Source of the DNA: Campylobacteraceae bacterium
Lineage (GTDB): Bacteria > Campylobacterota > Campylobacteria > Campylobacterales > Campylobacteraceae
Reading direction: 5' to 3'
Assembly: GCA_031268335.1 (NCBI GenBank)
Contig: JAIRXG010000007.1
Span: forward strand, 1 to 64,000
Length of the DNA: 64,000 nucleotides
This document shows positions 1,331-63,741 of the stretch, piece by piece (position 1 is the stretch's first letter; every line of letters begins with the position of its first letter). The position numbers and the translations under genes are program-made. The notes under the pieces are model-generated. The model saw only the letters and a list, made by a program, of their open reading frames with translations, had not been told where the DNA came from and did no database searches.

Positions 1331-2529
1331 CGTTTTTTAAACTCAATTTTTTTGCTTAAATCACTTGTTTCAATCCGTCCTATTTTTTATGTCACAATTA
1401 ATTTTTTGCAATAAAAAGCTCTAAAAACCCAAAAATATAAAAAATATATTGACAAAATTATCAAGATACTATTTTTTTGAAAATAGTCGAATTCAAAAAT
1501 GAAAAGTTTTACAAAATTCTCTAAGATTTTTACCCTTAAAGTACAAAATCGACAAAAAGCATAACTTGCGCGAAAAATTGGCTTAAAACATCTCACTATT
1601 TATGCTTTAACTTAACACAAATTATAAATTCTTGTTGACGGAATTGGCATATTTGATAAAATTTTATTAAGGTAAAGACTACATGTATAAGAAAATGAAT
1701 TTGTTACATATATTTTTAAGCGATTTCATATTTGACAAATTCATAAATCGACAAATGAAATGCGAACCAATTTTATTTGAAAACCATGATACTTTTATCT
1801 TAAAAAGCCAAAAAATAAGGATGCTCATTCTTTGAAAACATTTCGTATAAAACTTTGTCTATTTCAGTGGATATCGTAACATTCAGCACAACTACAATAG
1901 TACAAATCTCTCACAAGAGTTCTTTTTTATCATAGCAACTTTTACAGACACGATAAATCTGCTGTAAATGCAAGATGTTATTTTGTTGGGGTACGATTCT
2001 AATCTAAAAGTGCAATTTAAAATTTGCTCTTTACGCTATTTATATATTTATTGGCTATTGAATACAAATCAATGGAGCATTAATTTTGATTATGGTACAT
2101 CGAAGCAAAACTTTTCATTTTTTTATGCATAATGTCATACAAAAATGCATTTTAGACTGCATGTATGGTTATATATGTATATATAACATAAAATTGTATA
2201 AACCGCTTTTCAAACTTTCATCGGTAAATTAAAATTCTTATATGTAAAGCAATATAGCACGTAGAGACTTACTAACGGACTAGATAAATTGTATATTAAA
2301 TCCACACATGTAAAGCAACATGCGGCTATCACGCTTAGTAGGATGTAAATAGCCGCCCTCAATTATGGTTTCAAACGCTCTTATGGTACTATAATCGGAT
2401 TGCAAGTTGGATATTTAACTCAAATTATTATAGTTTGACTTGGCAGCATTATAGCTTTGCAAACTTTATCGCTTTAAAAAATGCTTCAACTTTTTTGATA
2501 TCTAATGATTTTATTTAAATTATCGCAGT
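1331..2529. other. 1.2 kb gene-poor AT-rich region
   Basis: I find no convincing gene here. The only longer frame (1387-1596, minus) is a low-complexity Phe/Ile/Leu-rich string without a good ribosome site. Two partly similar stretches, around 2240-2265 (TATGTAAAGCAATATAGC) and around 2305-2335 (CATGTAAAGCAACATGCGG), suggest decayed repeats. Copies of the palindrome TACATGTA occur at 1680 and, near the following terminator, at 2595. Confidence 0.5.
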
Positions 2530-2574
2530 AAAAAAAGGGTGAAGCTAAAATTATAAACTTTATTTTAGCTTCAC
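2530..2574 (-). terminator. Rho-independent terminator of the ilvI-ilvH-lpxD operon
   Basis: A perfect 13-bp inverted repeat (2539-2551 with 2562-2574, arm GTGAAGCTAAAAT) has a 10-base loop. Read on the minus strand, the stem is followed by CCC and a run of seven T. It lies 33 bases beyond the lpxD stop. Confidence 0.85.
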
Positions 2575-2606
2575 TCTGTTCACAATCTCACCCTTACATG
2601 TAAGAT

Positions 2607-3566
2607 TTAAATCTTTTTTTCTTTGAAAAAACGCGCAAGTTTTGCCTGCGCTTTAAGCCATTCTTTGTGGAGCATTATCGGGAAGCCGCTGTATACTTTA
2701 CCGCCTTCAAGGGTTTTACTAACGCCGCCGCGCGCGGCAACAACCGCAAAATCCCCTACTCGCAAATGTCCAGAAGTAGCGCTCTGTCCACCCATAACAA
2801 CATTTCTGCCAAGTATGGAAGAGCCTGCGAGTCCTGTTTGTGAAACGATAATACAATGTTCGCCCAATTCGCAGTTATGTCCTATTTGTACAAGATTGTC
2901 TATCTTTGTGCCTTTTTTGACGATAGTTGAACCAAAAACCGCTCTATCGATTGTCGTACAAGCTCCTATCTCCACATCGTCTTCCAAAATCACATTTCCA
3001 AGATGATATATCTTTACATGTACGCCCTCTTTTGTGTGCGCATATCCAAAGCCATCGCTACCGATAACACAATTTGCTAACAAATGACATCTCTTACCTA
3101 TGATGCAATTGTTATAAATGACCGCATTGGGATAGATTATTGTGCCCTCTTCTATCGTAACGTTTTCGCCTATATATGCTCCATGCATGATGGTAACATT
3201 TGCTTTGACAATAGCGCCGTTTCCAATATAAACATTTGGCATAACGACAGCGCTTGAGTCAATTTGCGGCGGTTTTGACGTAGAACCAATGACTTTAGAA
3301 GCAAACAGCTCGCTTAAAAGCGCCATATCCAAGTGCGGATTTTGGCTCACGATAATAGAACAGCCTTTTGGAGCAAACTGTTTGTGTTTTTCTAAAACTA
3401 TGGCAGCGCCGGCCTTTGTGTTTTTAAAACTATCCAAAAAGTTTTCATTTTCAAGATATACTATATGTTCGCCTAAAGCGTCTTGTATCGCCTGAAATCC
3501 GCCGATTTCCCTATCTTCTCCCTCATAATCGCGCGAGAGTTTTTTGCAAATATCAGATAATTTCAT
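2607..3566 (-). CDS. lpxD: UDP-3-O-acylglucosamine N-acyltransferase LpxD
   Basis: 319 residues, usual length for LpxD. It transfers a 3-hydroxyacyl chain from acyl-ACP to the 2-amino group of UDP-3-O-acylglucosamine, the third step of lipid A synthesis, in the cytoplasm. The N-terminal 100 residues are the uridine-binding domain; residues about 103-290 are left-handed beta-helix hexapeptide repeats (IG-x-x-V/I-type). The catalytic His is in QIGHN (His230) and the second conserved His in TSGHLRV (His267), in the same relative places as the E. coli enzyme. A helical C-terminus follows. The ATG shares its first base with the last base of the ilvH stop, so translation is coupled. The order ilvI-ilvH-lpxD is familiar from Campylobacterota. 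Confidence 0.97.
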   Translation of the reverse strand: MKLSDICKKLSRDYEGEDREIGGFQAIQDALGEHIVYLENENFLDSFKNTKAGAAIVLEKHKQFAPKGCSIIVSQNPHLDMALLSELFASKVIGSTSKPPQIDSSAVVMPNVYIGNGAIVKANVTIMHGAYIGENVTIEEGTIIYPNAVIYNNCIIGKRCHLLANCVIGSDGFGYAHTKEGVHVKIYHLGNVILEDDVEIGACTTIDRAVFGSTIVKKGTKIDNLVQIGHNCELGEHCIIVSQTGLAGSSILGRNVVMGGQSATSGHLRVGDFAVVAARGGVSKTLEGGKVYSGFPIMLHKEWLKAQAKLARFFKEKKI

Positions 3567-4039: not shown

Positions 4040-5731
4040 TCAATCCTTATACTCTAACATCATATTATAAAGCGAACCGCCGGCGGGAACCATAGGTAAA
4101 ACATTCTCAAATCTATCTACCTCAACGTCTATTATCACAATTTTATTAATCTCTAACGCGCTTTTTAAAGCTTCTTTAAACTCATCCTTTGTTTTGACTT
4201 TAAAGCCTACACCGCCGAAGCTTTCAGCCAATTTTACAAAATCCGGCTGTTTATCTAAGTCGGTAGACGAGTAACGTTTGCCGTAAAAAAATGTTTGCCA
4301 TTGGCGAACCATTCCCAAAAATCTATTATTTAAGATAATATTGATGACTGAAATATTTGACACAGCAGCAGTCATAAGCTCTTGAATATTCATCAAAATA
4401 CCGCCGTCTCCTACAAAATTAATGGAAACTTTATTGGGAAATGCTTTTTTTACCCCCATAGCTGCAGGCAAACCAAATCCCATAGTGCCAAGTCCGCCGC
4501 TTGTTACTAATTGACGCGCTTTTGTGAATGGATAAAATTGAGCCGTCCACATTTGATGTTGTCCTACGTCCGTGGTAATAATCGCCTTATCGCCAAGAGT
4601 TTTACCAACATACTCAATAATCCATTGCGGTTTTAAAACCTTATCGGAATCCTCATATTTTAGCGAATGAACATTGCGGTAGCGATTGAGCGTGCCATGC
4701 CACTCTTTATATCTTTTATCGTCAATTTTTTCTTTCAATATCTCAATCATAGCTTCGGCTACATTTTTTACATCGCCGACTATCGGAAAATCTATATCAA
4801 CAAGTTTGCCTATAGAACTTGGATCTATGTCTACATGTATAACTTTTGCATATTTGGCAAATTCGCTGAGTTTTCCCGTAACTCTATCGTCAAATCTCGT
4901 GCCGAAAGCTATTATCAAATCAGCTTCGCTCATCGCCATATTCGCCGCATAAGTTCCGTGCATGCCTACCATACCAAGAAGCAAAGGATCATCATATTGC
5001 AAAACACCTCTTGCCATGAGAGTCTCGACACAAGGAATTTGTGTTAATTTTACAAATTCTCGTATTGTGTCGGAAGCGTTTGAACTTACTATTCCGCCGC
5101 CCAAATATAATACAGGACGTTTTGCTATAGATATAGCTTCAACTGCTTTTTTTATCTGACGCGAATTTCCTTTGTATGTCGGTTTATATGTTTGCATAAT
5201 TATTTCGTTCGGATATATAAATTTTCCCATGCTTGCCGTTACGTCTTTTGGCACATCTATATGCACAGGCCCCGGTCTTCCCGTACTTGCTATATAAAAC
5301 GCCTCTTTCAGTATGCGAGGCAATTCTACTATGTTTTTCACAAGATAGTTGTGCTTAACACACGGACGCGAAATACCGACGGCATCAATCTCTTGAAAAG
5401 CGTCCGTACCTATCATACTAATGGCAACTTGCGCGCTTATCAGAACCAAAGGAGTAGAATCCATATAAGCCGTAGCAAGTCCGGTCACAGCATTTGTAAA
5501 GCCCGGACCGCTTGTAACAAGCGCAACGCCTGTTTTTCCCGAAGCTCTGGCATATCCGTCAGCAGCGTGAACCGCCGCTTGTTCATGTCTTGCCAAAATA
5601 TGCTCAAAATATTTTTGTTTGTAAATCTCATCGTAAATATTAAGCATTGCTCCGCCGGGATAGCCAAAGACTACCTCAACACCTTCTTTGCGCAATGCTT
5701 CAATGATCATCTGCGAACCGCTTATCTCCAT
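4040..5731 (-). CDS. ilvI: Acetolactate synthase large (catalytic) subunit
   Basis: 563 residues. Thiamine-diphosphate enzyme joining two pyruvates, or pyruvate with 2-oxobutyrate, to start valine, leucine and isoleucine synthesis. The catalytic glutamate is in RHEQAAVHAADGYAR (Glu50). The central FAD/acetohydroxyacid domain covers about 190-330, and the ThDP/Mg motif begins at GDGG (441) and ends at NN (468-469). It is first gene of ilvI-ilvH-lpxD and is divergent from pdxJ, with about 210 bases between. The family assignment is firm from the length and all ThDP motifs. Confidence 0.97.
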   Translation of the reverse strand: MEISGSQMIIEALRKEGVEVVFGYPGGAMLNIYDEIYKQKYFEHILARHEQAAVHAADGYARASGKTGVALVTSGPGFTNAVTGLATAYMDSTPLVLISAQVAISMIGTDAFQEIDAVGISRPCVKHNYLVKNIVELPRILKEAFYIASTGRPGPVHIDVPKDVTASMGKFIYPNEIIMQTYKPTYKGNSRQIKKAVEAISIAKRPVLYLGGGIVSSNASDTIREFVKLTQIPCVETLMARGVLQYDDPLLLGMVGMHGTYAANMAMSEADLIIAFGTRFDDRVTGKLSEFAKYAKVIHVDIDPSSIGKLVDIDFPIVGDVKNVAEAMIEILKEKIDDKRYKEWHGTLNRYRNVHSLKYEDSDKVLKPQWIIEYVGKTLGDKAIITTDVGQHQMWTAQFYPFTKARQLVTSGGLGTMGFGLPAAMGVKKAFPNKVSINFVGDGGILMNIQELMTAAVSNISVINIILNNRFLGMVRQWQTFFYGKRYSSTDLDKQPDFVKLAESFGGVGFKVKTKDEFKEALKSALEINKIVIIDVEVDRFENVLPMVPAGGSLYNMMLEYKD

Positions 5732-5937
5732 TATATCTCCTGCAAATATTCAGATAAAATGCATAAAATTAAAGATTATAACAAAAAAAGACTGAACGTC
5801 CTATATTTTATTTTCAATCTTAACTTTTTTATACATGTATTGTTTCGTTTCGAAATGAAAAAGCTAATTCATATTAATTTTTATAAGAAAATATTTCTTA
5901 TGTGTTAAAAATTTACCATAAATTTACGATATTATTT
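5732..5937. other. Divergent promoter region ilvI / pdxJ
   Basis: About 200 AT-rich bases between two divergent operons. It holds a TACATGTA palindrome at 5832 and no gene. The pdxJ extended -10 element lies at its right edge; I cannot assign the ilvI promoter with confidence. Confidence 0.5.
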
Positions 5938-5980: not shown

Positions 5981-6769
5981 ATGTTGCTAGGGGTTAATAT
6001 AGACCATATAGCTTATTTAAGAGAAGCAAGACGTACAAACGACCCAAATCCGCTCGATGCTCTTTGTATACTAAAAAAATGCGCGGTTAGTCAGATAACT
6101 ATTCATTTGCGTGAAGATAGGCGGCACATTCACGATGAAGATCTATTTGAGATAATAAAAACAGCCTATATGCCTGTAAACTTGGAATGCTCTTTGAGTG
6201 ATGAAATGTTAAGTATAGCTTTAAAGGCAAAACCTGCTCGTATTACTTTAGTACCTGAAAAACGCGAAGAAGTTACTACCGAAGGCGGATTGGATGTAAA
6301 AAAATACTTTGATAAATTAAAACTTACATGCAAAAGATTTAAAGAAGAAGGGGTAGATGTTTCGTTTTTTATTGACCCGAATTTAGAAATCGTAAATCTC
6401 TCAAATGACTTGGGCGTAAAATGGATAGAACTTCATACCGGAAAATATGCAAATATCTACGCTATGCTTTATACGAATTTACGCCATACTCACAACTCTA
6501 TAAAAAATCTCGAGTTTAGCTCTGAAAAATTACATGTATTATTAGAAAAATCCTTAAAAGAGCTTATAAACGCTGCTACAGAAGCAGATAAACTTGGTCT
6601 TTTGGTCGCCGCAGGTCATGGACTGAATTATTATAATGTCAAAAATATAGCGGAAATAAAAGAGATAAAAGAGTTAAATATCGGGCAAAGTATTATTGCA
6701 AGAAGTGTATTTTGGGGACTTGAAGAAGCAATAACAAAAATGCAAGAGCAACTAAAAGTATCCGAATGA
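5981..6769 (+). CDS. pdxJ: Pyridoxine 5'-phosphate synthase PdxJ
   Basis: 262 residues from the ATG at 5981, which follows an AAGGCAGG ribosome site by a few bases. An upstream in-frame ATG at 5945 overlaps the promoter and is rejected. PdxJ condenses 1-deoxyxylulose 5-phosphate with 3-amino-2-oxopropyl phosphate to make pyridoxine phosphate (DXP-dependent vitamin B6 route). Signature segments are LGVNIDHIAYLREAR at the start, the TIHLREDRRHI active-site stretch, NLECSLSDEM, and the C-terminal AAGHGLNYYNV and NIGQSIIARS phosphate-binding segments of the TIM barrel. The stop overlaps the pdxA ATG by four bases. Confidence 0.96.
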   Translation: MLLGVNIDHIAYLREARRTNDPNPLDALCILKKCAVSQITIHLREDRRHIHDEDLFEIIKTAYMPVNLECSLSDEMLSIALKAKPARITLVPEKREEVTTEGGLDVKKYFDKLKLTCKRFKEEGVDVSFFIDPNLEIVNLSNDLGVKWIELHTGKYANIYAMLYTNLRHTHNSIKNLEFSSEKLHVLLEKSLKELINAATEADKLGLLVAAGHGLNYYNVKNIAEIKEIKELNIGQSIIARSVFWGLEEAITKMQEQLKVSE

Positions 6770-9003: not shown

Positions 9004-9831
9004 TTATTTTTTGATTATTTGTATAATTTTGTCGCCAAATTTAACTTTTGTATCACGTTTTACAAGTGATTTAAAAACTCCGCTTTCACCCAAAAACACA
9101 ACGGTTGAACCCATTTCAAAAAAACCAAGTTCGTCGCCTTGCGATACATATAAATCTTCATACATGTAGAGAGTTTGACTATCCTCTTTGAGATTTGTAC
9201 AAATGTTTTCGTCAAAATAAAATCTCATTTTTCCCACATTAAGCGCACCTACAAAAATTAAGAAAAATTTATCCTTATCTTCTGTTTCGCACTCCAAAAT
9301 CACCCTCTCATTTTCCGTAAAAATCCCAGCTTTTTTATTTAACCACTTAAAATTTACAGGATACAACTTGCCGGAAATATGAACAGCTTTGATGATTTTC
9401 ATATAGCACGGAGAGTGATAGCGATGATAATCGGCAGGTGATAGATATAGGTTGATAAATATTCCGCCTTCAAGTTTTTTTTTCTCTTTTGCAAGGATAA
9501 AATCCCCGAGCAACGAGTTTACGCAATACGGCGAACCTTTGATTTGCAAAGCGGTAAAATCATTGCGTTTTATTGTGCCCTCCTCGCTAATCAAAGAATC
9601 GCACATGCTAATAAGCGCTTTGTCGTCTTTTACAACATCCCGCATAACTTTAAAACTTCTTGTAAAAAGAGTGTTTAGGCTTTCATAACTTTGCGGTTTA
9701 TTAAACTCTCTCATATCTATACTGAATGATTTGACATAACTTTTATTGATAAAAGCTTGTATTTTTTTTGGGAAACGTTTTGCTGCCAAAAAACCGAAAA
9801 TCCTTGAAAAAATATTCGTAGCGTATCGCAT
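9004..9831 (-). CDS. psd: Phosphatidylserine decarboxylase proenzyme
   Basis: 275 residues from the ATG at 9831. Longer in-frame starts up to 9906 run back into the upstream gene and are disfavoured, because this ATG has an AAGAG ribosome site and lies 15 bases after the preceding stop. The enzyme makes phosphatidylethanolamine at the inner membrane. The self-cleavage site is EMGST near the C-terminus: cleavage before Ser242 would give the pyruvoyl alpha chain. The LSPADYHRYHSP segment, with the catalytic histidine region, is also clear. The upstream metallophosphoesterase gene lies on the same strand. Confidence 0.95.
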   Translation of the reverse strand: MRYATNIFSRIFGFLAAKRFPKKIQAFINKSYVKSFSIDMREFNKPQSYESLNTLFTRSFKVMRDVVKDDKALISMCDSLISEEGTIKRNDFTALQIKGSPYCVNSLLGDFILAKEKKKLEGGIFINLYLSPADYHRYHSPCYMKIIKAVHISGKLYPVNFKWLNKKAGIFTENERVILECETEDKDKFFLIFVGALNVGKMRFYFDENICTNLKEDSQTLYMYEDLYVSQGDELGFFEMGSTVVFLGESGVFKSLVKRDTKVKFGDKIIQIIKK

Positions 9832-9845: not shown

Positions 9846-10961
9846 TTATTTTAATTCTAATTTTACTATTTCCGAAGGCGCTAAAACTCTCAACGGCGGT
9901 CCCCAATATCCCGCTCCTGAACTTACAAAAATCTGTGTTCTTTGGCTATGTTGATAAAGTCCGTAAAGATAAGGTTGGTCAATCAATACAAACAATCCGA
10001 ATGGAAAAATTTGTCCGCCGTGCGTGTGTCCGCTAATTATCAAATCTACATTATCTGAAATTTTTTGTACGACTTTTGGTTGATGTGAGAGTAAAACTAT
10101 TGGCAAAGTTTTATCTATGTTTTGTAAAGCTTTTTCAACATCGGGTTTAAAATATCCAAATCTCTCGCCTCTCAAATCATAAATTCCAGCTAAATTTATC
10201 CTATCGGCTACAACCACACTCTCATTTTCCAATACTTTTATGCCAAAGCTTTGGATAAGCTTTATCACCTCTTCAACGTCGCCGTTAAAATACTCGTGAT
10301 TTCCCAAAACATAATAAATTCCAAAACGACTCTTTAAATCTTTCAAAGGTTTTAATTTATCTTTAGCATATTTTGGCGTCAAATCCACTAAATCGCCGGT
10401 TATTACGACTATATCCGCGTCAAGTTCATTTGTTAGTTTTACAACTTCTTGCATAAACTCAAGCCCTAAAACTTTTCCGATATGCACATCTGTTATTTGA
10501 GCGATAGACAACGGCGCTTTTAAATTTGCGAGTTTAACCTCTACGCTTCTTTTAATAGGTTTGCTAAAGCCTCCGACAAATCCTTTAAGTATCCATGAAA
10601 AAGCGGCTATGAGGATAGTAACGTCAAGAATGGATTTTAAAGCTCTTCTTCTTGATTCGCTAAAAGGTATTACATGTAGAGGGATTCTTAAAATAAAATA
10701 TAAAATAGAGGCAAAAAAAAGCAAAAAAGATACACCGACTAAAGAGGCTGTAACTTGAAGTAAAATAATACTCGCGCCGCCTCTTCTAAAAGAGACAAAA
10801 TAATATACTTCTAGAATTGTCATAATAATAAGTAGAATTGCTATAATCCATCGCCACTTTTTAAAAAAATCTATACGATAAAAAAAACAAACGAATGAAA
10901 AAAGATTTAAGCAGAACATTACTGCGGACGCAATTATGCTAAAATTTACCAAAAGCAACAC
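9846..10961 (-). CDS. Membrane-anchored calcineurin-type metallophosphoesterase
   Basis: About 371 residues. Three to four hydrophobic segments occupy residues 1 to about 135. The catalytic domain follows: DVHIGK (GD/DxH motif), VVITGDLVDL, LGNHEYF and near the end SGHTHGGQIFPFG, together the full set of dinuclear metal ligands. It resembles the YkuE/YaeI group, which hydrolyses phosphodiester or pyrophosphate bonds in lipid metabolism; the natural substrate is not shown. The start is uncertain: GTG at 10961 sits directly against an AAAAAGG site, so TTG at 10958 or 10952 is possible. It overlaps nothing and is cotranscribed with psd, which would suit a phospholipid-related role. Confidence 0.85.
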   Translation of the reverse strand: MLLLVNFSIIASAVMFCLNLFSFVCFFYRIDFFKKWRWIIAILLIIMTILEVYYFVSFRRGGASIILLQVTASLVGVSFLLFFASILYFILRIPLHVIPFSESRRRALKSILDVTILIAAFSWILKGFVGGFSKPIKRSVEVKLANLKAPLSIAQITDVHIGKVLGLEFMQEVVKLTNELDADIVVITGDLVDLTPKYAKDKLKPLKDLKSRFGIYYVLGNHEYFNGDVEEVIKLIQSFGIKVLENESVVVADRINLAGIYDLRGERFGYFKPDVEKALQNIDKTLPIVLLSHQPKVVQKISDNVDLIISGHTHGGQIFPFGLFVLIDQPYLYGLYQHSQRTQIFVSSGAGYWGPPLRVLAPSEIVKLELK

Positions 10962-12873: not shown

Positions 12874-12945
12874 TTCATAACGGATACTATTCTTACATGT
12901 AAACATGCAAATAGTCAAAAATCTAAAAAAGCCTGAGGAGGTAAA

Positions 12946-15547: not shown

Positions 15548-16456
15548 ATGTTCAAATATTTCGTCTTTGCTTGCATATCTTTTATTTTATTTTCCGGATG
15601 TGCCACAAAAGTTGAAATAATATCTTTCACAGACGGCGCATTTATAGACGAAAATCTACCTATTTATATAGACGCTGAAAATAATTCGTATCCTTTTCTA
15701 AGCGAAGCTATAAAGAACGAACTTGAAAAACAGATAATCAAAGACGGTTTTTTGATAAGCGAGCAAAACGCTTCATATCGCTTGGATTTGAAATTGTTAT
15801 CACATGATAGATTTGCTTACCGCAGATATGAGCCTTCTTATTATTACTCCAACATCAAATGTACTCCCAACGGCGAGTGTTATCGTATTCCCAGAGTCGT
15901 ATATGTGCCATGTTTAGATGTTACGGATAGTATACATGTAGTACTTAAAACATCAAATTTGCATACTAATGAAACTAAAGAGTTCCCAATAACAAGCAGA
16001 GAGTTTGCCGATAATTGCCGAAATGGTCTTAATTACTCATATGGTTTTGGCTCCGATATATTTTTAGCTAACAACGTCAAACATGAAAATATAATATTGA
16101 CGGCAAAAAAGATAAAAGATACAATTTTTCCTATCAAAACTATGCAAAAAGAGAAGCTATTGAGCGAAATAAAAAGCACGCAACTCTCTCAAGAGAAAAT
16201 AGAAATCTTCGAGCAAAGTTTTAAAGCGGCTTCAAAAAAAAGTTATGGGGAGGCGATTTTAGGCTTTGAAAAACTAAAAGAGCTGACAAACAACGAAACG
16301 CCTTATGAAGTATATTTGAATTTAGGACTTTTATATGAACACGAAGAAGATTTGGATAAGTCTTTGCAAAACTATCAATATTTAATACAGATAATGCCTG
16401 AATCCGAAAATTACATAGAAAGAGTGCTTATAAAAAAGCGCTATGAGAAAAAGTAA
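15548..16456 (+). CDS. Lipoprotein with C-terminal TPR-like repeat, unassigned
   Basis: 302 residues. The signal peptide ends in LFSGC (lipobox, Cys18). Residues about 20-185 form a domain I do not recognise, rich in Tyr, with four cysteines (CTPNGEC, CLDV, DNC) that could form disulphides in the periplasm. Residues about 220-300 look like tetratricopeptide repeats (YGEAILGFEKLKEL, YEVYLNLGLLYEHEEDLDKS). The gene overlaps the TetR gene by 14 bases, so it may be cotranscribed with it. No specific role can be assigned. Confidence 0.8.
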   Translation: MFKYFVFACISFILFSGCATKVEIISFTDGAFIDENLPIYIDAENNSYPFLSEAIKNELEKQIIKDGFLISEQNASYRLDLKLLSHDRFAYRRYEPSYYYSNIKCTPNGECYRIPRVVYVPCLDVTDSIHVVLKTSNLHTNETKEFPITSREFADNCRNGLNYSYGFGSDIFLANNVKHENIILTAKKIKDTIFPIKTMQKEKLLSEIKSTQLSQEKIEIFEQSFKAASKKSYGEAILGFEKLKELTNNETPYEVYLNLGLLYEHEEDLDKSLQNYQYLIQIMPESENYIERVLIKKRYEKK

Positions 16457-17111
16457 AATTATGCCTACATGTACAAAAATCTCAAAAGAGTCGTTAAGCC
16501 CAAAAGAGAAAGCAAGATATGATAAACTGATTGACGCCGCGTCTAAAGTTTTTTCGCAATACGGATTTGAAAAAGCCAAAATGTGCGAAATAATCAAACA
16601 AGCAGGCGGTTCGTTTGTAACTATGTATAAAATTTTCGGCAATAAAGAGACTATTTTTGCCGAAGTTCTATTTCGTAAAATAGATGAAAATTTTTCAAGC
16701 ATAGAACATTCCGCCATCTCTTATAGTGAAAATCTGGAAGATTTCTTATATGATATCGGTAAAAAAATTATAACATTTGCCACAACAAACGATGCTATTG
16801 GCTTTCATAGATTGATAATTTCCGAAGGCTATAAAAATGATGCGAAAATAGGAAAACTTTTTTTTGAAAACGCCATAAAGCGTACAGCGTCCATAGTGGC
16901 AAAGTATTTTATAAGAGAGAGAGAGAGAGGAAATATCGACGTAGAATGCCCTACTTTAGCAGCGTATCAATTTTTGTACTTACTGAAAGAACCATTCTTT
17001 ACTGCTAAAATGCTTGGTGTAGATATAGACAATAATCCTATATTTGACGTTGAAAAATCATTGCGTCAAACGGTAAAAATATTTTCCAAAGGTATGGTTG
17101 TGAGGAAATGA
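16443..17111 (+). CDS. TetR-family repressor of the adjacent RND pump (CmeR-like)
   Basis: 222 residues from ATG 16443; an ATG at 16461 is equally possible, as neither has a strong ribosome site. Residues about 25-75 form the TetR helix-turn-helix (LIDAASKVFSQYGFEKAKM, with GGSFVTMYKIFGNKETIFAEV as the recognition part). The C-terminal ligand domain is only family-like. It lies directly upstream of a three-gene RND efflux locus, and a CmeR-type inverted repeat sits between them, which fits local repression of the pump. An (AG)8 tract in the coding sequence (REREREG, about residue 160) could slip and truncate the protein. Confidence 0.88.
   Translation: MRKSKIMPTCTKISKESLSPKEKARYDKLIDAASKVFSQYGFEKAKMCEIIKQAGGSFVTMYKIFGNKETIFAEVLFRKIDENFSSIEHSAISYSENLEDFLYDIGKKIITFATTNDAIGFHRLIISEGYKNDAKIGKLFFENAIKRTASIVAKYFIRERERGNIDVECPTLAAYQFLYLLKEPFFTAKMLGVDIDNNPIFDVEKSLRQTVKIFSKGMVVRK
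16914..16929. repeat. (AG)8 dinucleotide tract inside the TetR gene
   Basis: Eight AG units in the ligand-domain half of the repressor gene, encoding alternating Arg-Glu. Gain or loss of one unit shifts frame and removes the last quarter of the protein. Confidence 0.75.
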
Positions 17112-23033: not shown

Positions 23034-23958
23034 GCTCTCATTTAAAAAACCAACTTACATGCAAATATAAAAACATACCAAAAAAGTCGAAGTAGAAAAA
23101 ATAGCGCTATAGTAATAATTCTCATTTAAAATGATATGGTAGCAAAATATAATTTTAAAAAATCAGACATGATAAAAGTTGTGTGTTTAGTATTAAAAAA
23201 CGAAATATATAAATTTTTACGATGAGCATCCATATTTATCAGATAAAAAATAAATGATATTGTTTTGCCGAAACTTATAATAACAAAATATTTTAATTAT
23301 GATTTTGGAGTTAAAAAAATAAAAGATAAAATAGATATTGTTTTTATAGATGTATTGTAAAAAGACTTATGCCTAAAAATTTTAAACAAAATTTCTCAAA
23401 ATATTACAAACAATATGCTGAAATTTATAGCTAAACACAAACACTTGTCATTTGATAACTCAATAAATAACCGTTATCTTAGAAACAGTAAAAAATAGGC
23501 TCAAAAATATTTGACAGCATAAAAATAACTATAAGTAATTAAATCGCAAAAGTTGCCAATTTGACTGCATATTTTAGTTTTATTCTCTGCTTTTATGCAA
23601 TCTTTTTCTAAATCAACAAAATTTTTGCATTAAAACTCTTACATGTATGCTTGCAACAAAATATAAAATAATTAAGCAGTTAAGATTTTGCTTACATGCA
23701 AAGAATATATTAAGCAACTCGTACAAATTTTTGATTTGTTATAAGTTTTACTTTTTACATGTAAGAGAATTTTTCTATATGAATCACATTGTATTCAAAG
23801 GACTACAAGAGCACTGCATATAAAGATAAAAAATTAAAACCCCATTTTAAAGCCTTTACATATAGACTCTTTTATTTTTTATATGTAACTCAAAATATTA
23901 TAGAAACATTTTTGTCTTACATGTAATATTAAATTTTCCTATTTTTGCACAAACTTCC
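23034..23958. other. 0.9 kb intergenic region, no gene seen
   Basis: Convergent gene ends flank this AT-rich stretch. I find no open frame of note. It holds three exact TACATGTA palindromes (23640, 23757, 23920) and ACATGCA variants near 23056 and 23693, a local cluster of the genome-wide motif. Confidence 0.5.
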
Positions 23959-35485: not shown

Positions 35486-35507
35486 AAAAATAGGAACAAT
35501 ATAAAAT

Positions 35508-40695: not shown

Positions 40696-43600
40696 CAGCA
40701 AAGCCTCCTGTCTAATTCGTTTACTACTTTCCCGTCTTGCACATAATTATCTTCAAATTCTTGCAGTTTTTTACGCGCTGTTTCAATTTTCGCGCTATTA
40801 TCATAAATAGGCGAAGCGTTTCCATCTTTTAAGGCGACATCAATATTCTTTTTTAATATATTGAAGCGTTTATTTGCATCTTTCCCATAAAGCCACTCTT
40901 TATTTTTTATTATTGCATCGTTGTAGCTTTTAACGCCAAAATTATTAATTATATATCCTGTTTTAATGTCAATTACATCACCTTTTGCATATCCCAACTC
41001 AAACTCGCCAATCGTCATCTTTTTCCCTTTTATAGCTACAAACGAAGGATAGACGGTAAACTCTGAGGAAACATCAGAGGGAATATAACGTTTATAAAAC
41101 CACCCGTTTTGTCCGTTTTCTACCTGCAAAAGAGTTTTTTCTCCGTCGGGTATTGCCTCTTTTATATCAACTTTTCCCGTTGTTTTATGTTTTATAGCGG
41201 CATCTATATAATCTTTGCGAGCATCGTATATAGCTTTATAAATGTCATAACTTGGTTTATAATCTCCTTCCTCAAAAACAGGCTCTTTCTCATTTTTTAT
41301 ATAGTTATAGTATTTGGCAAAATTACCATCTTCTTTTTTAAGTTCTTCTATTATTTCCTCGCGGCGAGATTTGGTTATTTTGCCATTTTCTGTAAACAAG
41401 AGTTCATTTTTTAGCGTGGTATATTCATCTTCAAGCTCTATATTGCGCCTTTTGGCAGGATCGGCTTCGGCTATAGCTCTTGGATTTATATCATTTGTAA
41501 CGCTTTGTTCCCCGTAGAGTTCGTCGCGCCATCCCTTATTCTCCGTCTCTACTCTTGCAAGCTTCTCTTTTGTTGTTTTTATGTCTGTTTTCACTTTTTC
41601 AAAGAGCTCTTTAGCTTCCGCTCCTATAAGAGCTTCTTTTTCTCTATAAATATTGCGCATCTCTTCTCTAAGTTCATTAGACTTCACGGCGCGGTTATAT
41701 TGCGTTAATTTTTCAAAATCAGGATTATCTTGCAGCCATTTCTCTATGATACTTTTTTCTTCGTTTGTAAATTTAATACCTTTTTTACCGTTTAAGTATA
41801 AATTGTACTTACCAATTACTTCATTGATTTTCCCTGCTTCTTCAAGTTTAACTTCAAGCAAAGAGAGTTTTTCTTCTAAAGATGCGTCGGCTATCGTCAG
41901 TTCTTCAGGCGCGAGCTTATTGTCTGCATCTTCTGCGCGTACCACAGTGTTTGATTTATCCCCTGAAACGACAAACTCATCACCTCCAGCGGATTCGGAT
42001 TTTGCCACTCCTTCATCGCCTGCGGATACCCCGCGAATCTCGCCGTCAGGTACAGTATCCTGTCCAAGTCCCTGTAAGGTTCCTGCATCATCTGCTTCGC
42101 TTGAAGCACGAGAGAGGATAGATTCGCCCTCAATGCTTTCTCCCCCTCTATTATCAAGGTTATAAGCTCCTGCCTCTGCGCTTGATTCAGTTTCTCTTCT
42201 ATAAACAGTTTCATCTCCTGTATACTTTTCATCTGCTTCTCCTTTATTTTGTGATATAATATTTTCGTTGGAAGGCGGTTGACTAACTGGGTCCTGCTTT
42301 CCAACATTTTTATCCGAATACATTGTCATTACTTTTTTACTGTCCGCATTTTCAAATACAGCTACTCTATATCTAATCCCCTCTTTAGTTGACTCATAAG
42401 CATAGCTTTTTTGTCCGTTTTCAGATACTCTTACCAAATCTTCAGGCATCTCGCCTTTTCGTATTATCTCACCCATGTTTAAAAGTTCTTCAGGCGTTAA
42501 TTCGCCGTATTTACCTTCGCCGATATGTTTTTGTAAAATATGAATTGCCCCGCTGTCTCTATTACCCCTCCCATATCTAATTACATCAAAGAGGTCATCC
42601 ATTTTTATATCTACTGCGTTTTTACCGTTGAATGTCACATTCCAAATTCCACGCTTCTCTTTCTGCCGCGTTTTTTCATCAACTGTTTTTTTTACGCGCG
42701 CGGTCACTTCGTTAGTAGCTTTTCCCGCAACTTTTTCATTAAAGTACTGCTTTGCAATGTTTATATCTTTTTGGGCGTAAGCTTTGGTAAATACGGAGAT
42801 TTGTTCATCTCCAAATCCATACGATTTAAGCTTTGCGGTGAACTCCTCAGGCGAGTAAACAGGATTTGCAATGCTTTGTTCAAGGCGTGTGAGTATTTTA
42901 GTTCCTGCAACCTGCGCATTTACGCCAGCTCCGTCATTTAACAGTTCCGATATTTTAAGCATTTCAGCAGAAGGTTTATTGTTCACGGCAACCATATCGT
43001 TTATTGTGTTTTGACTAAGGGACGGGTTGTTTGTTCTAAGAGTGTTTTGCAGCTCAACGTCTTTTGCATAAGCATTTATGCTTTGCTCTTTTGCAGTCTC
43101 TATCTGTTTTTGCATTTTTACAAGCTCTTCGCCAAACAGGCTAAACTCGTCGCTTCGCTTTGACATTTCATACATACTTTTTATATATGCGTCAAACTCC
43201 TTTATATCGTTATATTTTTCCTGATCTATGATGCTTGCCGCTTTACCTTCCCTAACATCGTTCAAGACTTGCGCTTTAGTCTCCAAGGGCGCATCTTTTA
43301 AAATATTTGCAATAAATACATTAGTATCCCACTCCTTAAGCCGCGCCGCCGCTTCGTCTTTAAGTCCAAGCTCTTTTAACACATTATCAAGCATTGTTTT
43401 ATCGTTATCGGCAGCAGGGGATAGAGTTTCTGTTTTAGCGGCAGGAGGCGGATTATTGGATTTGGTTTTATATTTTTCATAAAGCTTCCCAACTCCATGC
43501 AAAACTTCTCCAAACGCCGCAGAAGCCACAGCGCCCATAGCAGCGCTTTTCATTATTTCGTCGTTATCGCGGTCCATCACGGCAGCAGTCCCGCCCGCTC

Positions 43601-44210
43601 CTATAGCTCCGCCAACGGCATTCAACAGTACTCTTTTTATGATGGATCCCGAACCGCTTCCGATAAGCGACGTAGGATCCGCGCTTGCGCCGCCTATCAT
43701 TTGCGCAATTATGCTTAGTATGGATTGACTCTTCCCCGTTCTGTATTCGTGGTCGCTAAATGCTCTCTCCCAATTTTTTGCCTGCTGCTTGGCATACTTT
43801 GTGCCTTCACTTATTTTAGCAGGGATTATTTGCGAGGGGATATTGTCTATTATATTGACTCCGCCGATATTCGTGTTTGGCATAGTTTTCTTATCGTCTA
43901 TGCTGGGACCGTGCGCCTCTTTCCATTTTATCCATTCGGGGTTTTCTATTGTGCCGTACATTGCCTCGTCAACCAAAGTATTGGTAAATGCAGATGATTC
44001 CCACCAGCCGTATTTAAACCCCTCCGCCACATCTCCGTCATCAAGCGCTCTGACGTAACCCTCGTGATCAGCGGCAAGCGGATTTTTTTTGTATTCATAA
44101 GCTTTTTTTATCTCTCTTTTAATCTCATCATCGCTAAGCCCTTTTTCGCGCAGACCGGAGAGTATGCCCCTGCCGCCCAAATCATTTAGCATATGTTCAT
44201 AAGTTTCCAC
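40695..44210 (-). CDS. Giant phage protein (1171 aa), polyvalent/internal-virion type with nuclease-like module
   Basis: GTG start with an AAAGG site. Residues about 195-235 are a glycine/alanine-rich hydrophobic segment (AVGGAIGAGGTAAVMD) suited to a membrane-active ejection protein. Residues about 540-635 (YGRGNRDSGAIHILQKHIGE, ELTPEELLNMGEIIRKGEMP) resemble the barnase/colicin E5-like module (DUF3519/PBECR) of Helicobacter and Campylobacter phages. A low-complexity acidic linker (about 640-770) and long charged coiled coils follow, and a second such motif region near 1060-1110 is possible. It is followed by a coupled second gene. Likely delivered with phage DNA; this is inference. Confidence 0.6.
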   Translation of the reverse strand: METYEHMLNDLGGRGILSGLREKGLSDDEIKREIKKAYEYKKNPLAADHEGYVRALDDGDVAEGFKYGWWESSAFTNTLVDEAMYGTIENPEWIKWKEAHGPSIDDKKTMPNTNIGGVNIIDNIPSQIIPAKISEGTKYAKQQAKNWERAFSDHEYRTGKSQSILSIIAQMIGGASADPTSLIGSGSGSIIKRVLLNAVGGAIGAGGTAAVMDRDNDEIMKSAAMGAVASAAFGEVLHGVGKLYEKYKTKSNNPPPAAKTETLSPAADNDKTMLDNVLKELGLKDEAAARLKEWDTNVFIANILKDAPLETKAQVLNDVREGKAASIIDQEKYNDIKEFDAYIKSMYEMSKRSDEFSLFGEELVKMQKQIETAKEQSINAYAKDVELQNTLRTNNPSLSQNTINDMVAVNNKPSAEMLKISELLNDGAGVNAQVAGTKILTRLEQSIANPVYSPEEFTAKLKSYGFGDEQISVFTKAYAQKDINIAKQYFNEKVAGKATNEVTARVKKTVDEKTRQKEKRGIWNVTFNGKNAVDIKMDDLFDVIRYGRGNRDSGAIHILQKHIGEGKYGELTPEELLNMGEIIRKGEMPEDLVRVSENGQKSYAYESTKEGIRYRVAVFENADSKKVMTMYSDKNVGKQDPVSQPPSNENIISQNKGEADEKYTGDETVYRRETESSAEAGAYNLDNRGGESIEGESILSRASSEADDAGTLQGLGQDTVPDGEIRGVSAGDEGVAKSESAGGDEFVVSGDKSNTVVRAEDADNKLAPEELTIADASLEEKLSLLEVKLEEAGKINEVIGKYNLYLNGKKGIKFTNEEKSIIEKWLQDNPDFEKLTQYNRAVKSNELREEMRNIYREKEALIGAEAKELFEKVKTDIKTTKEKLARVETENKGWRDELYGEQSVTNDINPRAIAEADPAKRRNIELEDEYTTLKNELLFTENGKITKSRREEIIEELKKEDGNFAKYYNYIKNEKEPVFEEGDYKPSYDIYKAIYDARKDYIDAAIKHKTTGKVDIKEAIPDGEKTLLQVENGQNGWFYKRYIPSDVSSEFTVYPSFVAIKGKKMTIGEFELGYAKGDVIDIKTGYIINNFGVKSYNDAIIKNKEWLYGKDANKRFNILKKNIDVALKDGNASPIYDNSAKIETARKKLQEFEDNYVQDGKVVNELDRRLC

Positions 44211-44237
44211 GTTTTACCTTTATCAAATGCTATTTTT

Positions 44238-45245
44238 TTAATCAAACCAGTTAAGAGGGTTCCACTTAGATCCTTGCGGTTGGTTTGACTTAAAAAGACC
44301 GCTGCCCGCTTTATCAACTCTTTGTTCTATAACATTATTGTTATTTAAAATGCTCTCCTCATTAACATCTAAAAGTTCAAAAAGATACGGATTAATAAAA
44401 TAATTTCCGTCATTCTCGCTAAAACCGTCTATAGCATCATCCTTGCTATATCTATACTTTTCAATTACCGCTTTCCTCATTTCATCGTATACATTTTTCC
44501 CGACTTGTATACCGGATGCAAGTCCGCTCGGACCGCCGAAAACTACATTAGTTCCTGTTACTTTCCCATTTTTTATATGTACCACTCCATAACCTCCGCC
44601 GTCAAGCTTTACAACCTTATCTACTGTTTTCGGATCGTTATCATTAATAAAATTAAAGTTTTTTCTGTAAAACCACAGCTCCTCGTCGCTTAAATCTTTA
44701 AGCTCAGGATACTTCGCTTTCATCATTTTTGCATTGTATTGCAACTGGCTATCCGCAGGAATACCATCAAGTTTTGCAGTTATTTCATTTAAGCTCGCCT
44801 GCATCGTATCGTTGCGCGCTTTTGTCTTTGCGCTATCGGCTTCGGATTTTTTGATTGTATTTTCAAGCTCTGCATTTGAAGTTAAAAACGGTTCTACTCC
44901 CTTGTTCCACGTTTCAGACTGTATATCATTTTCAAGTTCCACGCTTGCTGCTGAAGCTTTTTTTTGTTTGTTTTCAGCTTCTGCATTTGAAGCGTAGTAA
45001 GGAGAGCTGGCATCATAGAGCGTTTTGCTGTTTTGGGTATTTAACTTACTGTTTTCGGCAAGAGCATTATTATAATTAGCCTGCGCATCGCTTGAACGGC
45101 TCAAACGTTCAAACTCTTGTCTCCACCTTTCGTTTTCTTCTTCTTTATCGTTCCACTTTATAAACTCGCCTCCCGCAACCAATAAACAAACTCCACCAAG
45201 TAACATCACGTAACAAAACCCCGCTAAAAAGCCACTTTGAAACAC
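44238..45245 (-). CDS. Phage-element protein whose 5' end crosses attR
   Basis: Up to 335 residues. Most is hydrophilic coiled coil with an Ala/Asn/Glu-rich centre (about 55-170) and a C-terminal part ending NPLNWFD. The only start codons (GTG 45245, GTG 45209, ATG 45206) lie in or beyond the right attachment repeat. The segment MLLGGVCLLVAGGEF encoded there forms a membrane-anchor-like N-terminus. In the attL copy the same frame is closed by TGA. So the gene is either 5'-truncated by the element's end or has gained a host-derived start. I recognise no family. Confidence 0.6.
   Translation of the reverse strand: MFQSGFLAGFCYVMLLGGVCLLVAGGEFIKWNDKEEENERWRQEFERLSRSSDAQANYNNALAENSKLNTQNSKTLYDASSPYYASNAEAENKQKKASAASVELENDIQSETWNKGVEPFLTSNAELENTIKKSEADSAKTKARNDTMQASLNEITAKLDGIPADSQLQYNAKMMKAKYPELKDLSDEELWFYRKNFNFINDNDPKTVDKVVKLDGGGYGVVHIKNGKVTGTNVVFGGPSGLASGIQVGKNVYDEMRKAVIEKYRYSKDDAIDGFSENDGNYFINPYLFELLDVNEESILNNNNVIEQRVDKAGSGLFKSNQPQGSKWNPLNWFD
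45167..45228. repeat. attR, right attachment site (62-bp direct repeat)
   Basis: Second copy of the repeat beginning CGCCTCCCGCAACCAATAA, differing from attL at three positions. It repeats the last 15 bases of tRNA-fMet including CCA. The right part should be the original downstream flank of the tRNA gene. Confidence 0.88.
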
Positions 45246-46963: not shown

Positions 46964-47308
46964 GCTGCAAACCTCTTTTAAATTAAATACTAAAAGTGAT
47001 TATAGCAAATAAATAAAATCATCTGTTACGTGTAAGGCTTAAAATCTAAACTCTTAATTTTTCTATTACATGTAGCGGCAAATTTAACATTTTGTCTACA
47101 TGACTTTTGAGGTAGCGTTCCGCAAACAAATTTGACAAAACTGCTCAAGCGTAATTCTAGACTGCTATTTGTTTGTCAAAATTATTTGACAAACAATTTA
47201 AAAGAGTGAAATAAAAACTCTTACATGTGATCAAAAGCGTGATTTTTGTGCAAAAGTTGCATAAAAAACCATTCACAAAAAATAAAAATTACATGTTCAT
47301 TTTGCTAT
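46964..47308. other. Intergenic with hairpins
   Basis: 345 bases without a gene. Two stems are present: GTTTGTCAAA/TTTGACAAAC (47171-47194, 10 bp, 4-base loop ATTA) and AAGAGT/ACTCTT (47202-47222). A TACATGTA copy lies at 47066. The part around 47127-47164 resembles 31701-31769. Confidence 0.6.
47171..47194 (-). terminator. Strong hairpin downstream of the AroP-like permease
   Basis: Perfect 10-bp stem with a tetraloop, about 115 bases past the permease stop. There is no T-run after it on either strand, so it may be an mRNA-stabilising stem rather than a true terminator. Confidence 0.45.
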
Positions 47309-50302: not shown

Positions 50303-50743
50303 ATGAGAAAAATGTTCTATCTTTTAGCGTTTTTGGCGCTGATTTTTACAGGTTGCGCAGATAAATCTCCGCAATTAAATGTAGCTTATTCCAATGTTAT
50401 TTTCGAAAACGATAGCATAAAGGAGTGGCTTGTTTTGCAAAACATTATTTCTGTTGTTAGAGACGATGGTTTTATAGAGGTGGAAGTAGTTGGTAAAAAT
50501 ATCAGCTCATCTAAGCAAATTTTAACTTATAATGTGGATTGGTATGACCAAAATGGTTTTGTTATTAAATCCATATTGGTTAAACGTAAAATAGCAAGCA
50601 TTGAAAATGGCAAATCCATAATCATACATGTAATAAGCCCGAGTGAAAACGCAGCAAGTTATAAAGTTCGTTTTGGATTGCCTACAAGCGATGACGAATT
50701 AAGAGATAAAAATGTAAACTTAAGAGAATATAGAGGAGAGTGA
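50303..50743 (+). CDS. ycfL: YcfL-family lipoprotein (DUF1425)
   Basis: 146 residues with an AAGGAG site and lipobox IFTGC (Cys18). The core with VLQNIISVVRDDGFIEVEVV, LTYNVDWYDQNGFVIKS and FGLPTSDDELRDKN fits the YcfL beta-sandwich. Its function is unknown, but the gene regularly precedes lpoB, also in E. coli. Eleven bases separate it from the previous gene. Confidence 0.85.
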   Translation: MRKMFYLLAFLALIFTGCADKSPQLNVAYSNVIFENDSIKEWLVLQNIISVVRDDGFIEVEVVGKNISSSKQILTYNVDWYDQNGFVIKSILVKRKIASIENGKSIIIHVISPSENAASYKVRFGLPTSDDELRDKNVNLREYRGE

Positions 50744-51366: not shown

Positions 51367-51369
51367 TAT

Positions 51370-51401
51370 GTACATGTAAGAGCCGTACCTCTTACATGTA
51401 C
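51370..51401 (+). terminator. Terminator-like hairpin built from two TACATGTA motifs
   Basis: GTACATGTAAGAG (51370-51382) and CTCTTACATGTAC (51389-51401) form a perfect 13-bp stem with a 6-base loop, starting 3 bases after the lpoB stop. Each arm contains the genome-wide palindrome, like uptake-sequence terminators in Neisseria and Pasteurellaceae. Confidence 0.75.
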
Positions 51402-51487
51402 AAACATTAGAAAATAATCGCTGATAAAAGAGTGTGCCGCCAAATAGCCCGCATCTCTTACATATTTGAATATTTAAGGTAAAAATT

Positions 51488-61193: not shown

Positions 61194-61204
61194 ATTATTT
61201 TGAA

Positions 61205-61236
61205 GTTTACATGTAATGTATCCCTTACATGTAAAC
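61205..61236 (+). terminator. Terminator-like hairpin of inverted TACATGTA motifs
   Basis: GTTTACATGTAA (61205-61216) and TTACATGTAAAC (61225-61236) form a perfect 12-bp stem with loop TGTATCCC, twelve bases past the stop of the LplT-Aas fusion. Same design as the hairpin after lpoB. Confidence 0.75.
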
Positions 61237-61586: not shown

Positions 61587-61768
61587 GTGGAAATCCCCTA
61601 TTGTTTTACGCAAGAAATGATTTAAAAAGAAAGTTACATGTAGTGTAAATCCAACTCTTATGTAACACATTAAGAAAACTACATGTAAGAGGAAATCCCT
61701 CACATGTAAGTTACGGATTAAGATGTTACAAGTGGATTTGAGTAAGGTTTCCTCACATATGAGTTACT

Positions 61769-63484
61769 TTACCTTTGCCAATAAAGATACGGGTAACTAC
61801 TGTTTTCGTCTATTTTCCAAGGATTTGCGTTGTTATCTCCAAAAGACCAACCTAAACTCTCATAAGTTGATTTGGTTTTGAGGTCTGCTTCGGATTTGCC
61901 TTCTCCGTTGAGATTGTCGCCACCTGATACGGTATTACCATTTACGAGCATAGTCTCTAATGCAAAATTGTTAGACGCCGTACTACTGTAGTTATATCCA
62001 AATATACGATTTGCATCGGAGGCGCCATCAATTAATGGATTTATCGCAGCATTGTTTTGGACAACCACTCCGTCGTTCATAGCAACTCCTACAATTCCAC
62101 CGATACTATAATTGCCGCTAATATTTCCTGCTGAGTAGCTATTTGAGACGTTGCTTTCACTAATATAGCCAACTATACCGCCGACACCACTATTTCCGCT
62201 AATATATCCTGTGGAATAACTGTTTGAGACGTTACTATAATCAATACCTCCCGCAATGCCACCGACGTAATCATCCCCATTAATATCTCCTTTTGAGTAA
62301 CTGCTTGCGATGTCACTTTCACTAATATACCCCGCTATACCGCCAACTCCATAATTTCCGCTGATATTTCCCGTTGAGTAGCTATTTGAGACATTGCTTC
62401 CACCAATATAGCCAGCTATACCGCCGATACCACTATCTCCGCCAATATCTCCCGTGGAATAACTGTTTGAGATATTGCTGCCAAGAACGCCTCCCGCAAT
62501 TCCACCGACAAAATTGTATCCTCTTACTCCGCCATTTGAGTTATTTATCTCAACTTCAAGATTTTTTACTTGAGCATTATAGATAGCTCCGAAAAGCCCT
62601 ATATAACTGGTTAAAGGTCTATCGATCCATAAACCGCTTATTGTGTGATTGTTGCCATTGAGAATACCTGTAAAAGTATAAGAAAAATCATCATCGTCAT
62701 AATAATCTCCTGTCGGCAACCAACCCTCCGTCTCGTCTAACGTTGTATTTGTCAAAGTTATGTCGCTCAGTAAAATATATTTGCCCGATAGATTGTTGCG
62801 AACATTGTTTAACTCTACTTCGTTTCGTATCTCTTGAACGTTTTTAGTAGCGTAAAGATTTATATCACTTGTAATGTTGTAATCTGTATAAGAAGATATG
62901 TCTGTGCTACTGTTTGTTTCAAATAAAGACGTTGGTAAACCATAGTCTGCTATCAATTGTAATAAGTCTACATTTCCTAAGGAAACAACTATACTTTGAT
63001 TTAGATTTAAATCATTATCATAAAAATGGATAACATATCCGACGTCTACCTTAACTATGTTACTTATGATTGACGCAGTTTTATTGCCATTCACTTGTGT
63101 ATTTGTAACAACTACATAATAGAAAAATGTTCCCGAAACACTTGTTGATGGAGTGTATGCATTACTTGTTTCGCCCGATATCTCTATTCCATCTTCTACT
63201 GTTCCGACGCTGCTTTTGTACCATTGATAAGACAGCATTCCTCCATCTGCAACTTCTGCCGTTACACTAAGAGCGTTTGCTTGTTCACCTACTGCATATG
63301 CTGCATTTATTGGTTGAATAGCGATGGTTGGAATTTGGGCGTTGAGAGTTGCATTGTGGGCATTTTCACCCCCGCTGCTTCCGCCTCCACATCCTATTAG
63401 GGTAAAAATAATAAAAAGGCTGATAAACCAACTGAAAAATTTAAAAACAGAATATTTTGTTTTATTGATTTGAGAAGTTTGCAT
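61769..63484 (-). CDS. Surface lipoprotein with GLUG-type repeats
   Basis: 571 residues from the ATG at 63484, which has AAGGAG six bases before it (the GTG two codons earlier is less likely). Signal and lipobox TLIGC, then a Gly/Ser linker. About 45-150 is an Ig-like beta domain (SYQWYKSSVGTVEDG, repeated in many adhesins). About 320-480 has seven GLUG-type repeats of some 24 residues with the pattern VGGIAGY-x4-NVSNSYSTGNISG. Such proteins are usually surface adhesins. Nearly identical DNA repeats would allow copy-number change. No sorting or autotransporter domain is seen. Confidence 0.85.
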   Translation of the reverse strand: MQTSQINKTKYSVFKFFSWFISLFIIFTLIGCGGGSSGGENAHNATLNAQIPTIAIQPINAAYAVGEQANALSVTAEVADGGMLSYQWYKSSVGTVEDGIEISGETSNAYTPSTSVSGTFFYYVVVTNTQVNGNKTASIISNIVKVDVGYVIHFYDNDLNLNQSIVVSLGNVDLLQLIADYGLPTSLFETNSSTDISSYTDYNITSDINLYATKNVQEIRNEVELNNVRNNLSGKYILLSDITLTNTTLDETEGWLPTGDYYDDDDFSYTFTGILNGNNHTISGLWIDRPLTSYIGLFGAIYNAQVKNLEVEINNSNGGVRGYNFVGGIAGGVLGSNISNSYSTGDIGGDSGIGGIAGYIGGSNVSNSYSTGNISGNYGVGGIAGYISESDIASSYSKGDINGDDYVGGIAGGIDYSNVSNSYSTGYISGNSGVGGIVGYISESNVSNSYSAGNISGNYSIGGIVGVAMNDGVVVQNNAAINPLIDGASDANRIFGYNYSSTASNNFALETMLVNGNTVSGGDNLNGEGKSEADLKTKSTYESLGWSFGDNNANPWKIDENSSYPYLYWQR

Positions 63485-63727
63485 TAACACTCCTTGTTTT
63501 TTAAATGAAGGGTTAAAAAAATATACTGCTTTTTTACTTAATTAAAGATAAATATTTGGATATGTTTAACTCTTTTTTATTTTAAAGTTTTAATATCTTG
63601 ATAAATGTTTATCTAAAGAGAGTATGTTTTACGTTACATGTAGGGGGGTTATGGTTTTGTAATGCAAGATATTAAAATCCGCGTAAAGAAAAAACTCTCT
63701 TAATGCGGATATTTGCTTTATTTCAAG

Positions 63728-63741
63728 CTTTACATGTAAAG
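63728..63741. repeat. 14-bp perfect palindrome CTTTACATGTAAAG at the polA end
   Basis: It lies 4 bases past the polA stop and has the genome-wide TACATGTA core with CTT/AAG flanks. Further on (63675-63708) ATCCGC and GCGGAT can pair across 22 bases. Confidence 0.6.

Follow-up and report, generated by a model that had tools for sequence, protein, structure and literature searches.

A CATG-centred palindrome iterated in Campylobacterales genomes may be a methylation-gated DNA uptake sequence

We analysed a stretch of 64,000 nucleotides from Campylobacteraceae bacterium (NCBI GenBank assembly GCA_031268335.1, contig JAIRXG010000007.1, positions 1 to 64,000), referred to below as the window, in which one eight-letter DNA word, the palindrome TACATGTA with its CATG core, recurs within genes and between them. 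Comparison with related genomes suggests that this word is kept together with a DNA methyltransferase and thinned where the enzyme has been lost, and that it may be a methyl-tagged self-recognition signal, most likely for DNA uptake. The genome of the window (1.65 Mb, 85% complete) is designated G000; other G numbers denote relatives, and f and g numbers are labels of families and genera.

Results

The original prediction, made from the window alone, described TACATGTA as a highly iterated palindrome with 29 exact copies. Our recount agrees; most of the example coordinates are exact, but three were off by one and correctly begin at 27111, 47067, and 63731. Seventeen of the 29 copies lie outside the open reading frames (ORFs) taken as genes. 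The copies and the prophage-like element of the window are as follows.

1680-1687: copy, intergenic
2595-2602: copy, intergenic, beside an LpxD-like gene (2607-3566)
3015-3022: copy, in a gene
4832-4839: copy, in a gene
5832-5839: copy, intergenic
6531-6538: copy, in a gene
9161-9168: copy, in a gene
10671-10678: copy, in a gene
12894-12901: copy, intergenic
15933-15940: copy, in a gene
16466-16473: copy, in a gene
23640-23647: copy, intergenic
23756-23763: copy, intergenic
23918-23925: copy, intergenic
24919-24926: copy, in a gene
25609-25616: copy, in a gene
27111-27118: copy, in a gene
28370-28377: copy, in a gene
31834-31841: copy, intergenic
34284-45245: prophage-like element without copies, with integrase and terminase large subunit
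47067-47074: copy, intergenic
50625-50632: copy, in a gene
51369-51402: copies at 51371 and 51393 that pair in a 14-bp stem directly after the ORF that ends at 51366 (-19.7 kcal/mol, z -4.8)
61205-61236: copies at 61208 and 61226 that pair in a 12-bp stem directly after the ORF that ends at 61193 (-14.1 kcal/mol, z -4.9)
61635-61687: close pair of copies (61635, 61680), intergenic
63635-63642: copy, intergenic
63731-63738: copy, intergenic

Dinucleotide shuffling of the window (100 shuffles) yielded a mean of 0.78 copies and a maximum of four, and TACATGTA ranks first among the window's 8-mers under Markov models of orders 1 to 4, which predict about one site at orders 1-3 and five at order 4. 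Under the maximal-order model, which predicts a word from its own sub-words, it falls outside the top ten 8-mers of the window, and TACATG and TACATGT head their own lists. The whole of G000 holds 696 copies compared to 44 of the reversed control, and a 402.5-kb sample of this genome, used for the Markov and variant counts, holds 165 compared to approximately seven under a second-order model. A genome-wide count near the Markov expectation, which the original prediction had named as contrary to it, is therefore clearly not what is seen, and the proposed comparison with highly iterated palindromes (HIPs) such as cyanobacterial HIP1 and with uptake sequences is supported. Near-variants are frequent in the same sample, as had also been predicted: words one step away from the motif, with CATG intact, are in excess, namely TACATGCA (65 copies, 7.1 expected), TACATGTG (46, 4.3 expected), and TACATGTT (34). 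CATG overall is just mildly under expectation, and the excess of the single 8-mer is 24- to 55-fold.

The prediction had drawn attention to the absence of the motif from the phage element. This is literally true, as there are no copies between 34.2 and 45.2 kb, but it is weak evidence: 34 of 385 sliding 11-kb windows of the G000 sample are equally empty (the element's own included), as is the region from approximately 51.4 to 61.2 kb outside the phage-like stretch, and we set this absence aside. Both the integrase and the terminase large subunit, within 34284-37149, are broken into two ORFs, which suggests either decay of the prophage or errors in the sequence. As to the depletion in newly acquired DNA that uptake sequences show, a plasmid stretch carries six copies per 20 kb compared to 150 per 280 kb on the chromosome.

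We surveyed 398 genomes of the order, including G000, and classed as high-copy those that held 200 or more copies, with a ratio to the reversed control of four or higher, cut-offs that were picked after the data had been seen. The 46 high-copy genomes comprise 39 of the 44 members of f20, six members of f16, and G000. Family f20 holds Sulfurospirillum (G055 is Sulfurospirillum diekertiae and G154 is Sulfurospirillum sp. Kmv13), where the motif takes the form TTACATGTAA; f16 is probably Sulfurimonadaceae. The maximum of 1727 copies falls among Sulfurospirillum and its kin in f20, and the same family includes G071, which is at background (28 copies, control 25), and G109, which is near it (109, control 50). 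Outside the 398-genome draw, high counts in the window's family were found in G004, which shares the window's genus (874), G005 (246), G022 (1480), G031 (1605), and G024 (1031); its remaining members are mostly low. Within the 398, the putative Campylobacter (g2 to g6) and Helicobacter (g54) genera are at background. The palindrome is thus iterated in this genome, as proposed, but is not special to it, being found in patches across the order.

The only PF02086 (D12) methyltransferase match in G000 is encoded on contig C28 and is 332 aa long; related proteins occur in G004 (86% identity), G055 (two, 60 and 53%), and G022, G024, and G031 (38%); PF01555 methyltransferases were rejected as partners, having no match in G000, G004, G055, or G031. 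Searches with 291 of the 332 residues did not put a close name to the enzyme, with one NCBIfam match below the cut-off and none in PDB. In G195 and G055 the chromosomal gene is flanked by a CheY-like gene and a small gene, and visual inspection of the genes next to the methyltransferase in G195, G055, G000, and G022 revealed no recognisable restriction gene, the neighbours having been given no family search. A further member of this methyltransferase family lies on the G055 plasmid (C2, NZ_CP059996), with a restriction endonuclease annotated in the same 20 kb.

A profile scan across genome contigs, evaluated on the best 80 of 557 confirmed places, showed that the family is widespread and that many carriers from other phyla strongly avoid CATG near the gene, with 5 sites compared to 97 expected in Nicoletella and 2 compared to 99 and 2 compared to 49 at two further loci. 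The H. pylori enzyme hpyIM (M.HpyI) recognises CATG (PMC4450513), and strong profile matches in g54 suggest that the present enzymes belong to its family. Given this avoidance elsewhere and the specificity of hpyIM, the present enzymes probably recognise CATG. A restriction system acting on CATG would lead to the same avoidance, and hpyIM is itself accompanied by a restriction enzyme (PMC4450513), which raises the possibility that TACATGTA is a by-product of restriction-modification, its sites being spared or favoured by such a system. We consider this very improbable, as inspection by eye showed no restriction gene beside the native gene, CATG as a whole is only mildly depleted, and avoidance is unable to yield so large an excess of one 8-mer.

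Strong matches to the methyltransferase profile (E<1e-100) occur in 31 of the 46 high-copy genomes and in 72 of the 352 others (Fisher p 3e-10, kinship uncorrected). Within g31, the main Sulfurospirillum genus (24 genomes), the 14 genomes with the native gene hold 1060-1727 copies, compared to 109-1201 in seven without it (p 3e-5, kinship uncorrected): G109 (109), G359 (270), G144 (342), G174 (657), G263 (671), G305 (841), and G206 (1201). Adding G347, G389, and G407, which are incomplete or have a split match (975, 897, and 1582 copies among the three), changes p to 6e-4. In the first six of the seven (109-841 copies) the flanking genes were found but no methyltransferase separates them, and two of these genomes, G174 and G305, encode another copy of the enzyme at a different place; in G206 the neighbour gene of the site was not found. 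A tree of four neighbouring genes, which represents local genes and not the species, places the six gene-less genomes in four positions (G144 beside G236, G174 with G305, G109 alone, and G263 with G359), and loss rather than gain of the methyltransferase would be the simpler reading.

A second palindrome, ATCATGAT, is also centred on CATG. Its three highest counts among the 398 genomes are in G076 (1901), G167 (1288), and G071 (685), with at most 244 copies elsewhere; G071 belongs to f20 and the other two to another family, and all three have a strong methyltransferase match, so that here, as with HIPs, an alternative palindrome goes with a methyltransferase. A CATG core that is kept while the arms change is the pattern expected if one protein writes the core and another reads the arms.

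We then compared the fate of individual sites in aligned genomes; the genome pairs used are not independent. In gene-bearing pairs with 81-89% identity, 92-97% of sites are kept compared to 42-56% of control palindromes, and at 69-77% identity the corresponding ranges are 57-95% and 3-30%. In these pairs the conserved footprint reaches one base beyond the 8-mer at either end (0.96-0.98 compared to a baseline of 0.84), and a single base seven positions out reaches 0.93. The sites thus show position-specific conservation above their surroundings, as uptake sequences do; the DNA uptake sequence (DUS) of Neisseria is 97% conserved in a background of approximately 85% (PMC2397512). Between G236, which has the gene, and G144, which does not (84% identity over 122 kb aligned), only 14 of 56 ungapped aligned G236 copies are intact in G144 (10 gapped ones were set aside), compared to 46 of 137 control palindromes of like composition, and the footprint is absent. 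In the other direction, 14 of the 16 G144 copies are present in G236, a figure that is raised because survivors are old. Sites in G144 therefore appear to decay like control palindromes after loss of the gene.

The density of copies outside ORFs is 2.8-6.5 times that inside, and intergenic copies lie nearer to ORF ends than to starts (67 compared to 32 in G000, 41 compared to 23 in G055, and 39 compared to 30 in G195). A palindromic word with an intergenic bias could be the binding site of an abundant regulator or part of a dispersed repeat element; however, the preference is for ORF ends, and beyond approximately 14 bp no strongly shared base was found around the sites, whose flanks are just A/T-rich, and we judge this explanation to be highly unlikely. 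The sites are not evenly spaced; their spacing is close to random apart from a surplus of short gaps, those under 50 bp numbering 12 in G000 (2.9 expected), 12 in G195 (6.0), 8 in G236 (2.7), and 6 in G055 (3.6). Intergenic positions account for 27 of the 38 close pairs. An inward extension of 3 bp or more is seen in 14 of the 38, and the centre of every one of these 14 lies 18-40 bp from the closest ORF end. Such inverted pairs in hairpins after genes, with a putative terminator role, resemble those of uptake sequences, although no run of T follows the window's hairpins at 51369-51402 or 61205-61236.

These observations bear on a further alternative, namely that the palindrome has a chromosomal role (in the nucleoid, replication, repair, or transcription termination) and that each site is under direct selection without any part in uptake. 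Strong conservation of single sites, hairpin pairs past genes, and the link to a methyltransferase would all fit, but more than 1000 sites would each need selection, pairs are only a minority of sites, the sites of G195 are not concentrated towards a pole (20 stretches hold between 4 and 17 per 20 kb), and gene-less lineages persist with far fewer sites. We regard this role as unlikely, though one to be taken seriously.

Discussion

We favour the reading that TACATGTA is a methylation-gated DNA uptake sequence, to which we assign a probability of about 0.5. Under this reading, TACATGTA, or TTACATGTAA in Sulfurospirillum, would serve as a self-recognition palindrome whose CATG core is written by the methyltransferase and whose arms are recognised by a reader. 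Transformation would replace alleles, so that copies spread and are repaired and each site stays put; once the methyltransferase gene is lost the signal would no longer be written and copies would wear away. Genome comparison establishes the iteration of the word, its site-by-site maintenance, its association with the gene, the lower copy number after apparent loss, the second CATG-centred dialect, and the intergenic and hairpin placement.

The closest precedent for the palindrome itself is HIP1 with its alternative HIPs in cyanobacteria (Elhai 2015, PMC4390886), where frequent short palindromes and lineage-specific alternatives are likewise found, together with methyltransferases of the inner sequence that may have their counterpart in the present enzymes. 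Elhai's model, in which methylation-directed mismatch repair turns near-matches into the palindrome, could apply here as well, as the combination of iterated palindrome, probably matching methyltransferase, and alternative palindromes parallels that in cyanobacteria (PMC4390886), and in G000 near-variants are enriched at outer positions and hardly within CATG. We nevertheless consider this model improbable because a search of 28 genomes for MutL, limited to the domain PF01119, gave no match, while the control yielded it in 11 of 14; in Sulfurospirillum G055 and G195, moreover, near-variants are at about background. The present system further differs from HIP1 in sequence, in phylum, in its D12 adenine-type methyltransferase, and in that lineages appear to have lost the gene at one syntenic site and have fewer copies.

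Two other systems provide parallels. The Neisseria DUS and the uptake signal sequences of Pasteurellaceae share conservation far above the surroundings, a location mostly at permissive or intergenic sites, and close inverted pairs in hairpins after genes (hairpin pairs are frequent in Neisseria, and terminator pairs occur; PMC2397512); here the motif, a putative uptake sequence, is palindromic and linked to a methyltransferase. In the related C. jejuni, uptake requires sites methylated by CtsM, with self-recognition by methylation as a working model (PMC8468864, PMC8627207), but the CtsM site RAATTY, as presented there, is short and frequent (28,482 in one C. coli genome) and not a longer iterated palindrome. 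The hpyIM enzyme, although apparently of the same family as those here, stands with a restriction enzyme (PMC4450513), and putative Helicobacter g54 lacks iterated TACATGTA. Competence machinery is present, with ComEC in 47 of 47 genomes and T2SSF in 27 of 28 (missing from G250 of g54). Taken together, the lack of a PF01119 match in the 28 genomes, the competence genes, the CtsM precedent, and the Neisseria-like pattern lead us to favour methylation-gated uptake.

Several observations weigh against this reading. First, the association with the enzyme has exceptions in both directions, and the profile was made mainly from high-copy genomes. Fifteen of the 46 high-copy genomes have no strong match, including G206 (1201 copies), G121 (1124), G152 (611, one contig), and G329 (484), all at least 99% complete, and the 72 other genomes with a strong match include G071, G311, G317, and G371 in f20. 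The link is loose among members of the window's genus: those with the gene have 696, 874, 98, 92, 91, 71, and 69 copies, and those without it 246 (G005, 99% complete), 92, 55, 34, 30, 12, and 5. Second, in pooled mixed pairs 33-82% of the gene-bearer's copies survive compared to 6-56% of controls, which indicates partial loss; in the comparison of G174 with G305, which have the enzyme at another place, 5 of 5 and 5 of 6 copies are kept; and decay at the control rate on a large sample is seen in G144 only. Between G000 and G004, with 18.6 kb compared, 6 of 7 and 6 of 9 copies are kept, compared to 16 of 51 controls. Third, ComEC and T2SSF are also present in low-copy genomes, and ComEC, being universal here, was dropped as a discriminating factor. 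Lastly, to our knowledge, uptake sequences described in Neisseria and Haemophilus are not palindromic, and methylation of the present sites and their role in uptake are inferred from genome comparison. The matching methyltransferase that the original prediction had proposed to look for is supported by the high-copy association, the g31 losses, and site retention, but with the exceptions above and with a specificity that is only probable.

More broadly, Campylobacterales may possess a family of methylation-gated palindromic uptake sequences, dialects that share the CATG core of one orphan methyltransferase family, a proposal that we hold tentatively, at slightly short of even odds. If true, a single system would embrace palindromes of the HIP1 kind, uptake sequences of the Neisseria type, and the CtsM mechanism of Campylobacter, which have until now been viewed as three separate phenomena, with a bearing on what HIP1-type palindromes do. 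Given that the apparent natural enzyme losses at one syntenic site, accompanied by fewer palindromes, occur in related bacteria of which some are cultivated, the cause is testable.

In the open-access literature, subscription journals being outside the search, we found no report of TACATGTA as an iterated motif, the string occurring in Phytophthora papers only, and nothing for Sulfurospirillum combined with "DNA uptake sequence"; CATG in one Sulfurospirillum paper refers to primers (PMC7755780). The motif is apparently unreported in that literature.

Other iterated words and tracts were also observed. The reversed control TAGTACTA occurs 1188 times in G113, compared to 78 copies of ATCATGAT, and is probably another iterated palindrome, with a GTAC core. 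A 19.6-kb locus (L126) of the Helicobacteraceae metagenome-assembled genome TD114a_bin11 holds 10 copies of GCGATCGC, which is cyanobacterial HIP1, and 38 of CGATCG, with CATG present 4 times compared to 48 expected. Lastly, the window contains a run of 15 C at 8849 and a run of 8 C at 37320, which are possible phase-variable tracts.

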